Below, one piece after another: positions 25,991 to 28,095 of a stretch of DNA of 45,068 nt. The first letter of the stretch is position 1, and every line of letters begins with the position of its first letter. Both the position numbers and the translations under genes were made by a program. Source of the DNA: Methanocorpusculum parvum (GTDB lineage: Archaea > Halobacteriota > Methanomicrobia > Methanomicrobiales > Methanocorpusculaceae); assembly GCA_015063085.1 (NCBI GenBank), contig SUTD01000010.1:1-45068 (forward strand), read 5' to 3'. The notes under the pieces were generated by a model, which worked only from the letters and a program-made list of their open reading frames with translations, was not told where the DNA came from and searched no databases.

Positions 25991-27259
25991 ATGCGAAGAT
26001 CACCATACGAAAGAGAAACTGCCCTTGGTATCAGTTATTATGCAGCTGACTGCGAAGGAATCGGCGGAAAGCTTAGAACTCTTCCGGAAGATTTTATCGT
26101 TGAAGAACTGCCCATTAATTTCACCAACACAGGACCATATACTATTTGCCGCCTGACGAAAAAGTCCTGGGAACATCAGCATGCCGTTCGCGAAATTACA
26201 AACCGCCTCCACATCAGTCCGAAGCGTTTCGGCTGGGCGGGAACAAAGGATCGCAATGCGGTAACAACCCAGTATATCTCGCTCTACGATGTGTCTCCTG
26301 AGCAGATTGAGATGCTTTCCATCAAAGATATCACAATTACTCCGGTTGCTTCGCATCAGTTCTCTCTCGGCCTTGGAAATCTCGAAGGCAATCGTTTCCG
26401 CTTAACCCTTCGCGGATGCGGGGAGGAGAATCTCGCAGAAAAGACTGCAGAGATTACTGAAGCAGTCAAAACCGGAATTCCGAACTACTTTGGTCTTCAG
26501 CGTTTCGGTGCCTTAAAACCGATTACTCATAAGATGGGCTATCATATTCTCCGCGGAGAGTATAAGGAAGCAGTCGATCTCTATGTCGGAGATGCATTTC
26601 CGTACGAGTCGGATGAAATCAAAGCTGCCCGTGCCCGTTTCCGCGAGACAGGAGATGCAAAGGAAGCACTCCACGACCTGCCGGTTCATCTCTCGTATGA
26701 GAGAATCCTGCTTGACTCTCTTATGAAGAAGAAGGATGACTTCGGTGCAGCTTTACAGACGCTTCCGCCGAAACTGCTTTCTATGTTCGTTTCAGCCTAC
26801 CAGTCGTGGCTGTTCAATATGGCTGTCTCTGCCCGCTGTGCGGAAGGAACATTGTTTAATGAACCGAGAATCGGTGAGCACCTGGTTTTTGCCAACGGCA
26901 GAGTAGACACTGTAACAGAAAAGAATCTTCCAACCGCACGCCAGCACATGAAACGCGGAAGATGTTTTGTTGTCGGATGGATGCCGGGAAAAACGCTTCC
27001 GGTAGCTGCCGGCCCCTTAGAAAATGAGATGTTTTCCTTAATGGAAAAGGATGGTATTTCGATGCCGGACTTTGACAAGGCAGCAGCTTTTGTGAAGACT
27101 AATTATGACGGATTCCACCGGAGAATCTCTCTTGAGGCGGATGTATGCGCTGAAGTGTCCGGAACTGATGTGATTCTTTCCTTTACTCTTCCGCCGGGAC
27201 ATTATGCAACAACGGTTGCAAGAGAATACATGCAGGCAGAACCAGCCTGTATGGTGTAA
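25991..27259 (+). CDS. truD: tRNA pseudouridine synthase D
   Basis: Makes pseudouridine 13 in tRNA (positions 13 and sometimes 35 in archaea). 422 residues with the catalytic motif GWAGTKDRNAVT (Asp at 87), the following QYISL, and the NYFGLQRFG motif. The insert domain separates these from the C-terminal catalytic part ending in SFTLPPGHYATTVAREYM. Length and order fit archaeal TruD. An eight-T terminator follows at 27262-27269. Confidence 0.94.
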   Translation: MRRSPYERETALGISYYAADCEGIGGKLRTLPEDFIVEELPINFTNTGPYTICRLTKKSWEHQHAVREITNRLHISPKRFGWAGTKDRNAVTTQYISLYDVSPEQIEMLSIKDITITPVASHQFSLGLGNLEGNRFRLTLRGCGEENLAEKTAEITEAVKTGIPNYFGLQRFGALKPITHKMGYHILRGEYKEAVDLYVGDAFPYESDEIKAARARFRETGDAKEALHDLPVHLSYERILLDSLMKKKDDFGAALQTLPPKLLSMFVSAYQSWLFNMAVSARCAEGTLFNEPRIGEHLVFANGRVDTVTEKNLPTARQHMKRGRCFVVGWMPGKTLPVAAGPLENEMFSLMEKDGISMPDFDKAAAFVKTNYDGFHRRISLEADVCAEVSGTDVILSFTLPPGHYATTVAREYMQAEPACMV

Positions 27260-27261
27260 TC

Positions 27262-27269
27262 TTTTTTTT
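27262..27269 (+). terminator. T8 terminator after truD
   Basis: Eight T residues begin three bases after the truD stop codon, upstream of the hairpin array. Confidence 0.55.
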
Positions 27270-27295
27270 GTTCACAGCAAGTCTCTTCAAGTCTT

Positions 27296-27458
27296 GCTCA
27301 TAGCGCGAGTTCAGACTTTCAGTCTGTCCTCGCGCCCGTCGAAAGCCGCTTACACGTCGTGCTCATGGCTTGAGACGCTTCGCGTCTCGCGCCCATCGCA
27401 CGCCCTTTCGGTCATGCTCACGGCTTATACACTGAGGCAATGCCTCAGTGTATGCGCC
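27296..27458. repeat. three tandem hairpin units with a shared frame
   Basis: The truD-grpE gap (27260-27585, 326 bases) has no gene but contains three related hairpins. Each begins GCTCA (27296, 27361, 27416). Unit 1: GCGCGAG/CTCGCGC (27303-27309, 27329-27335) enclosing CAGACT-TTC-AGTCTG. Unit 2: GGC-TT, GAGACGC-TTC-GCGTCTC (27372-27388), GC-GCC. Unit 3: GGC-TT, ATACACTGAGGC-AAT-GCCTCAGTGTAT (27427-27453), GC-GCC. The frame is conserved while the inner stems differ and still pair perfectly. This implies selection for structure, or independent copies of a mobile hairpin. Role unknown; the rest of the gap holds the grpE promoter. Confidence 0.75.
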
Positions 27459-27530
27459 TTTTACCAATAGTAAACCTCGTACAAAAAATAGCCTCAGAAT
27501 AAGCCCCGATTCCCTGCAAACACCAAAAGC

Positions 27531-27585: not shown

Positions 27586-28095
27586 ATGGATAAAGAAACT
27601 ATAGCAAATGACACCCCTGCCGAAAACGCAGACACCATGGATGCCGTCCCTGAAACAAACGTTGTTGAAGAACTCACCAAAAAATACGATGAACTCAACG
27701 ACAAATATCTCCGTCTTGCTGCCGAGTACGAAAACTACCGCAAAAGAAGCAAGCGTGACCAGGAAAACTCCGTTCGCTACGCAACCGAAAAGATCGCACT
27801 CGACATCGTCGAAGTTGTTGACAACTTCGAACGTGCATTAAAGAGTAACGACGAAAACCTTCGCGAAGGATTAGAACAGATTCACAAATTCTTCCTCGCA
27901 AGCCTTTCGAAAAACGGCATCGAACAAATGAACGCAGCCGGAACACAGTTCGACCCTGAACTCCATGAGGCCATTGCAGCTCTTCCCTCCGACAAGCCCG
28001 ATGGAGAAATCTTAGACGTCGCTGTCGCCGGATATATGCTGCGTGACAAAGTCCTTCGTCACGCAAAAGTTGCAGTATCAACGAACAACCCCTGA
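27586..28095 (+). CDS. grpE: GrpE nucleotide exchange factor
   Basis: Co-chaperone that releases ADP from DnaK. 169 residues from ATG 27586, beginning MDKETIANDTPAEN, with an acidic disordered N-terminus, a long helix (ELTKKYDELNDKYLRLAAEY, then ENYRKRSKRD), and the C-terminal beta domain with FDPELHEAI and the closing VAVAGYMLRDKVLRHAKVAV. A start at 27547 is disfavoured because it would lie too close to the TATA box. It is the first gene of the chaperone operon; dnaK follows after 19 bases. Confidence 0.92.
   Translation: MDKETIANDTPAENADTMDAVPETNVVEELTKKYDELNDKYLRLAAEYENYRKRSKRDQENSVRYATEKIALDIVEVVDNFERALKSNDENLREGLEQIHKFFLASLSKNGIEQMNAAGTQFDPELHEAIAALPSDKPDGEILDVAVAGYMLRDKVLRHAKVAVSTNNP

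Follow-up and report, generated by a model that had tools for sequence, protein, structure and literature searches.

The intergenic region between truD and grpE in Methanocorpusculum parvum carries three adjacent hairpins with a conserved frame, whose inner stems are fully paired and differ in sequence. What kind of element is this, and how can a stem be rewritten without losing its pairing? The window analysed, 45,068 nucleotides of DNA, is one contig (C12) of a 1.40-Mb archaeal genome (G000) that is about 80% complete; dnaK and dnaJ, named by eye, lie further on from grpE.

Three double hairpins between truD and grpE

A preliminary description of this DNA had reported three tandem GCTCA-led hairpins with fully paired inner stems at 27296-27458, and these are present as described. 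The inner stems comprise 6 pairs (CAGACT/AGTCTG, TTC loop), 7 pairs (GAGACGC/GCGTCTC, TTC loop) and 12 pairs (ATACACTGAGGC/GCCTCAGTGTAT, AAT loop). The GGC/GCC frame said to be shared holds for units 2 and 3, while that of unit 1 is GCGCGAG/CTCGCGC. The extent of the unit had to be revised, only half of it having been caught: a stem-A hairpin precedes each GCTCA, and A and B stems alternate (Table 1). The true unit comprises two hairpins over ∼50 nt and reads TCGC-[stem A]-GCTCAYGGCTTGAG-[stem B]-CTCKCGCC on the top strand. Both neighbours of the array, truD and grpE, lie on the strand opposite to the units. When 27260-27480 was folded as RNA, the energy was -87.1 kcal/mol as compared with -54.7 ± 4.1 kcal/mol for 200 dinucleotide shuffles (z -8.0), and 0/200 shuffles folded as well. 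A search of the window against 4227 Rfam families at the gathering score gave no match, and counting the 11-mer frame in the window was uninformative (16 occurrences, 22 expected).

Table 1. Features of the truD-grpE array in the window, and sites at which a unit is present in one genome (filled) and absent from another (empty).
Feature	Position	Strand	Basis or comparison
truD, neighbour, context only	25991..27259	+	Pfam TruD
stem A, unit 1: GCAAG-T-CT..AG-T-CTTGC; bottom-strand A.A mismatch	27277..27297	-	profile match 27277-27310, E 3.2e-4
stem B, unit 1: outer GCGCGAG/CTCGCGC, 2x2 mismatch loop, inner CAGACT/AGTCTG, loop TTC (bottom strand GAA)	27302..27336	-	sequence and folding
stem A, unit 2, degraded	27338..27362	-	model match 27338-27393, 49.9 bits, E 1.2e-9
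stem B, unit 2: GGC-TT-GAGACGC-TTC-GCGTCTC-GC-GCC	27367..27393	-	sequence and covariance model match
stem A, unit 3; as DNA stable on bottom strand only	27398..27417	-	DNA folding
stem B, unit 3: GGC-TT-ATACACTGAGGC-AAT-GCCTCAGTGTAT-GC-GCC	27422..27458	-	model match 27395-27458, 34.6 bits, E 9e-6
grpE, neighbour marking the orthologous site	27586..28095	+	Pfam GrpE and orthologues
filled/empty site	L132:9461 (G018)		compared with L098 (G007); filled copy at L161
filled/empty site	L097:3869 (G018)		compared with L118 (G000)
filled/empty site, extra unit within stem A	L003 (G000)		compared with L132/L098
filled/empty site	L132:10143 (G018)		compared with L003/L098/L096; flanks align poorly
filled/empty site	L119:6253 (G000)		compared with L101 (G002)
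filled/empty site	L133:2044 (G018)		compared with L073/L094 (G007)
filled/empty site	L120:8674 (G000)		compared with L097 (G018)

The unit belongs to a dispersed family of the genus

The preliminary description had proposed searching the host genome and its relatives, and the search uncovered a dispersed family, confined to the genus among the genomes sampled from the order. A regular expression whose pattern itself contained the unit ends TCGC and CTCKCGCC returned 30 distinct full units, and a profile gave 81 matches in 1.01 Mb of related DNA. A covariance model (R1) was then built from 12 units, three short seed rows being poorly placed in stem B; this smaller seed set was chosen since MAFFT misaligned stem A of mixed-length units. 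At E 0.001 the model matched 16 of 25 genus genomes, many of which are incomplete, and found zero copies in the other nine. Six genomes are rich in units (G000, 41 copies; G018, 40; G007, 44; G002, 57; G010, 26, in a fragmented genome 69% complete; G023, 29). Ten other members hold 2-16 copies, among them G014, a single contig of 1,804,962 bases, with 4.

With stricter filters, 13/17 genus members in a sample of 120 genomes from the order matched, as compared with 0/103 genomes outside the genus. An exact search for the frame in 84,980 species genomes yielded 33 stretches, 25 of them in Methanocorpusculum, including five metagenome-assembled genomes from goat, cattle, buffalo and water-deer gut. 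The 8 bacterial stretches are taken as chance; a PF13366 match (see below) was found in one of the 8 genomes concerned. In matches from other species the A frame is alike and the B hairpins are different, as judged by eye. Taken together, we think it probable, though well short of certain, that the array is made up of three members of a Methanocorpusculum double-hairpin repeat family that is dispersed, mobile and non-autonomous.

At L131:529-801 a diverged unit occurs twice in nearly identical form, and the second copy adjoins an ORF that is conserved in both G007 and G000. At L028:1447-1620 and L135:2640-2983 (G000, G018) a unit array abuts a putative tRNA gene, recognized by eye, and long hairpins. 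An inverted unit pair forms part of a composite palindrome of about 250 bp or more at G000:C24:10271-10530 (L004:1481-1740), and another at G000:C1:55878 (L020) combines one unit with nested inverted repeats; by eye, both resemble gene-less relatives of the inverted-repeat elements described below.

The fold is kept and the letters are rewritten

Covariance analysis, proposed in the preliminary description, showed that the stems covary. In 87 model matches (76 distinct rows), 96.8% of cells were paired; when the structure was slid along the alignment, at most 34.1% were. Double-sided changes occurred at 13/16 pairs and in 125 cells, as compared with 29 in shuffles, a count that rests on a structure-fitted alignment and so leans in favour of pairing. 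The seed alignment gave 14 such cells as compared with 3.4 in shuffles. In these covariation counts, as in the polarity counts below, the copies share descent and the trials are not independent.

The site upstream of grpE displays the rewriting most plainly: in each of four genomes the frame there encloses a paired core of a different sequence. The core of G000, just before GCGCCTTTTACCAAWAGTAAA, is ATACACTGAGGC-AAT-GCCTCAGTGTAT; that of G018 is GCGCATG-TC-TTGATGC-TTC-GCATCAA-TC-CATGCGC; that of G007 is GAGTTGTC-TGAC-GACAACTC; and that of G010 is shorter, AACC-TTC-GGTT. The G002 site is without a clear hairpin. Unpaired cores in related genomes, which had been named in advance as evidence against a kept fold, were thus not seen in general, the grpE locus of G002 being the one exception among five. 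The orthologue search for grpE gave no match in G023, and the array was not seen upstream of grpE in the more distant species inspected (a set that excludes L056, L061, L063, L064 and L067). By eye, the gene upstream of the array differs among L049 (G018, GIY-YIG-like), L050 (G007) and L052 (G010), and because of this difference the arrays may mark rearrangement points.

Paired changes were also found within inverted repeats. Of 166 ungapped stem pairs in 27 inverted-repeat pairs, 11 had compensated changes, 7 had a change on one side, and in 1 both sides had changed without compensation; divergence outside the stems was 8.8%, several of the alignments containing gaps. The clearest concerted arm changes are at L181, L216 and L180, where one pair is altered on both sides and the arms are otherwise nearly identical.

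Whole units are present or absent at matching sites

Both flanks could be matched in another genome for 29 of 64 unit clusters. Whole-unit presence or absence, by gain or loss, was observed in 7 of 12 aligned site sets (Table 1), the remaining five being filled in both genomes, unclear or one-sided. Edge repeats at the seven filled/empty sites are short and inconsistent (0-7 bp), and no target-site duplication of fixed length was seen at them, both by eye. At several unit loci the flanks are similar from one locus to another.

The L119 unit is an in-frame part of a GxxExxY gene, whose product has GERHVSDSSHEHDRRACDE in place of K of the G002 counterpart, a net gain of 18 aa; insertion is the likely direction of this change. 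This is at least one clear in-frame case, and others may exist. Matches inside called ORFs number 4/87, plus at least one (L119) in an ORF missed by the caller, and this is a lower bound, gene calling being crude: 75% of the DNA was called, and the GxxExxY ORF around the L119:6253 unit was overlooked. Elsewhere at this locus a unit-like hairpin, letter-identical in two species (L119:5447-5500 and L101:6780-6833), sits inside an ORF without a Pfam match and is either coding sequence or a fossil unit.

Among the possibilities raised at the outset was a small mobile hairpin able to swap one core for another. The dispersed copies, the filled and empty sites and the different paired cores at an orthologous site all speak for it.

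Folding mostly favours the bottom strand

The structure of the units is mostly strand-polar. On the top strand, 36/44 mismatches in A stems and 96/120 in B stems are pyrimidine-pyrimidine. The 44 distinct A stems have C.T (20) and T.C (14) mismatches as compared with 2 A.G, so that the bottom strand has G.A or A.G pairs at these places. The loop has the form GN..A on the bottom strand in 32/44 A stems and 29/47 B stems, and on the top strand in none. C-G-closed GNA triloops are exceptionally stable in DNA. With DNA folding parameters the bottom strand was favoured over the top in 35 A stems vs 1 (of 44) and in 34 B stems vs 4 (of 43); with RNA parameters the figures were 19 vs 3 for A stems and 27 vs 15 for B stems.

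Polarity is not uniform, because B-stem wobble-type mismatches favour the top strand (T.G 13 and G.T 3 vs A.C 5, mostly in the TT/GC frame) and the B stems of the array, taken alone, are nearly equal on the two strands (bottom/top -14.7/-14.1, -8.8/-8.8 and -14.1/-13.4 kcal/mol). The A stem at 27398-27417, as DNA, has -4.3 kcal/mol on the bottom strand vs -0.7 on the top. Orientation to genes is random: for the 48 matches with both neighbours called, the counts were 16 same/same, 14 opposite/opposite, 9 opposite/same and 9 same/opposite. The polarity, the DNA folding and the random gene orientation together favour a folded single DNA strand over an mRNA element. The earlier suggestion of a DNA cruciform is compatible with these strand-polar, DNA-stable hairpins.

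GxxExxY genes lie beside units and within inverted repeats

The gene around the L119 unit encodes a 'GxxExxY protein' (PF13366/TIGR04256) of the PD-(D/E)XK superfamily. The GxxExxY protein of the partner element, P0002, scores 112.9 bits against a TIGR04256 cut-off of 35, and 114.7 against a Pfam cut-off of 22. G000 has 15 PF13366 matches, and 11/29 of its unit clusters are no more than 500 bp away from one, where 0.41 would be expected; the binomial P of 1e-13 overstates this clustering, duplicated flanks not being independent. Seen from the genes, a unit is found that close to 10 of the 15. Because flanks of several loci match, this nearness may arise partly from duplicated segments.

Unit and gene counts rise together across the 25 genomes (Spearman 0.56, P 0.003) and across 15 chosen, more complete ones (Spearman 0.52, P 0.049). 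Individual genomes depart from the trend. PF13366 was not matched on the contig of the window itself, nor in G010, the incomplete genome with 26 units; G017 and G019 have 16 and 12 units with 2 and 1 PF13366 genes; and G008, G016 and G004 hold 4, 3 and 2 PF13366 matches without any unit.

Where units and genes are neighbours, they are arranged in a preferred way. In the unit-rich genomes, 37/45 units within 700 bp of a gene are inverted about it (P 1.5e-5), a test that covered 38 of the 63 PF13366 matches of these genomes, 28 of which have a unit within that distance. At L242 a unit flanks the GxxExxY gene on each side, minus on the left and plus on the right, and a like arrangement occurs at L224, L226 and L231, from three other species, as weak model matches (E 0.04-0.4).

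In other members of the genus the genes are mostly framed by long inverted repeats. When 600-bp flanks were compared, 22/23 GxxExxY genes of these genomes scored at least 60 (median 200), the sole exception being L215. The same held for 7/37 genes tested from unit-rich genomes and for 4/16 from the wider phylum, 13/16 of the latter scoring above 32. Control genes of 250-700 bp reached this score in 0/161 cases (highest 33); they replaced a cross-locus control (maximum 261), in which related loci share repeats. Applied to the inverted repeats of other species, the unit model gave weak matches only (E 0.006-0.4). Perfect hairpins with arms of at least 7 lie near the gene in 6/10 scanned loci (L178-L181, L184 and L185). 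It had been asked in advance whether copies would prove to be the end of a known transposon; they were not matched to a described transposon, and they resemble parts of the GxxExxY inverted repeats.

Inverted repeats of ∼60-240 bp enclose GxxExxY genes at L181, L216-L219 (G014), L226-L228 (G016), L221/L185 (G011) and L237 (G000), mostly beginning 50-120 bp from the matched domain, and CGCGAATC motifs recur in several arms. GxxExxY genes with flanking inverted repeats were also seen in other families of the phylum (L260, G143; L261, G135; L266, G150), which suggests a wider element class; the L266 repeats are tandem motifs such as CACAAAGTACACAAGGG. A plasmid search for GxxExxY returned 8 records, and a PDB sequence search with the protein found no relative. 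The name GxxExxY occurs in literature on CRISPR-linked reverse transcriptases. Reverse transcriptase itself was rejected as the mover: PF00078 was present in 6/25 genomes, including three of the six unit-rich ones, with no pattern.

Discussion

Our best reading, which we hold to be the probable one while leaving real room for doubt, is a mobile hairpin family, conserved in structure and related to the GxxExxY elements. The most economical rival that dispenses with an enzyme is neutral turnover of palindromes, in which hairpins of intergenic DNA would be spread and mended by replication slippage, template switching and gene conversion, and the GxxExxY link would be hitch-hiking in duplicated segments. 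We regard this as possible but rather unlikely. It would account for the short, inconsistent direct repeats at filled sites, for compensated double changes in arms otherwise about 9% diverged and for the resemblance among flanks of several unit loci, and template switching can create and maintain hairpin stems, according to PMC8794818. Repair alone would not be expected to give unit-sized indels at unrelated sites, mismatches and loop type that persist though cores change, or the mostly inverted placement of the units that surround GxxExxY genes. A family of structured non-coding RNAs (serving, for instance, in a 3'-UTR, in processing or in protein binding), with the bottom strand as the transcribed sense and duplication as the source of copies, seems to us improbable. 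Strong covariation and conserved internal loops are what such a family would display, bottom-strand RNA is somewhat more stable too, and G.A pairs occur in RNA motifs. The polarity, however, is stronger under DNA than RNA parameters, orientation to flanking genes is random with the array neighbours on the other strand, copies come and go between species, and the window has no Rfam match. Given the last of these, the random orientation, the DNA-stronger polarity and the many unrelated loci, the structured RNA or RNA-processing element before the chaperone operon, proposed in the preliminary description, was abandoned as the main reading.

Two further explanations fare worse. Archaeal REP elements moved by a tyrosine (Y1/HUH) transposase, like bacterial REP/RAYT, would also be short, intergenic, strand-polar palindromes clustered in both orientations with no fixed target duplication, and RAYT genes flanked by REPs or long terminal inverted repeats, as described in PMC3733652, look much like the GxxExxY genes here. 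Y1_Tnp (PF01797), however, was found in 0/25 genus genomes, many of them incomplete, as compared with 5/14 control genomes, and we consider this explanation very unlikely. Even less credible are transcription terminators of truD and other genes: TTTT directly follows the third hairpin (27459-27462), but truD is already trailed by a T-rich tract (27260-27269), copies occur in every orientation to genes, and one lies inside a coding gene.

If a mobile hairpin family is the right reading, its bottom strand would fold as single-stranded DNA into GN(N)A-looped hairpins with G.A pairs, and the mobility machinery would recognize shape rather than core letters, leaving cores to drift while still pairing. 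Fold-back template switching during replication, in which one arm is copied from the other, may rewrite the cores, and these may also be exchanged between copies through their shared frames. Selection on shape would be needed too, because plain arm copying would erase the conserved mismatches. Less surely, the GxxExxY PD-(D/E)XK protein from inverted-repeat elements might act in trans on the folded DNA and so spread the units. RAYT transposases are thought to spread REPs, and this is the model for the putative role of GxxExxY as a mobilizing nuclease. A broader proposal, which we put forward tentatively and judge more apt to be wrong than right, is that GxxExxY proteins are the nucleases of an unrecognized class of mobile DNA, with a folded strand as substrate, its shape conserved and its sequence free; the units, the truD-grpE array among them, would be non-autonomous passengers whose stems are rewritten as pairs in a replication step of each move.

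Known elements share parts of this picture. The integron attC site is a bottom-strand hairpin in which shape outweighs sequence and the terminal stem is variable; the units would likewise be bottom-strand hairpins with shape over sequence, but no cassettes were seen and the frame letters are unlike the attC boxes. MITEs and related TIR elements share their ends with an autonomous element. The units here, like such ends, mostly face each other in inverted orientation across a gene and also occur scattered where there is none, but there is no described transposase, no fixed target duplication was seen, and the ends are hairpins with variable letters. Rickettsia palindromic elements are mobile DNA palindromes, and they can occupy protein genes without breaking the reading frame; the one clear in-frame insertion found here is alike but is the exception, the units being mostly intergenic, with a conserved frame and a rewritten paired core. 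Bacterial REP/BIME elements and RAYT are likewise short, strand-polar, intergenic palindromes, non-autonomous and clustered in both orientations, with a candidate mobilizer gene nearby that is itself sometimes flanked by long inverted repeats (PMC3733652). Many-copy intergenic palindromes are found here as well, with 26-57 copies in each of six genomes. The units differ in being archaeal double hairpins of ∼50 nt whose stem cores vary among copies of one genome, and in having a partner candidate of the PD-(D/E)XK superfamily, Y1 transposase not being found. One end of a REP bears an unpaired, conserved tag, GTAG or CGTC, according to the same source; the unit ends are TCGC and CTCKCGCC, as preset by the search pattern. 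The mode of life resembles that of REP/RAYT and of Rickettsia palindromic elements, without a Y1 transposase as far as tested. Multi-base compensatory changes arising from one template-switch event have been described for RNA genes (PMC8794818), whereas here they are proposed for a dispersed repeat. Literature searches on Methanocorpusculum repeats, palindromes, template switching, PF13366 and GxxExxY, with subscription papers mostly outside their coverage, returned nothing on these elements.

If the best explanation holds, then the truD-grpE array has no special chaperone function. It is an instance of a repeat in which selection or mechanism preserves the fold and not the letters, visibly so at fixed sites across species, and with such a hairpin repeat the question of how paired stems change without breaking becomes directly testable. 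It also offers a concrete lead for the poorly known GxxExxY proteins, whose genes are here enclosed by long inverted repeats or have dispersed hairpins next to them.
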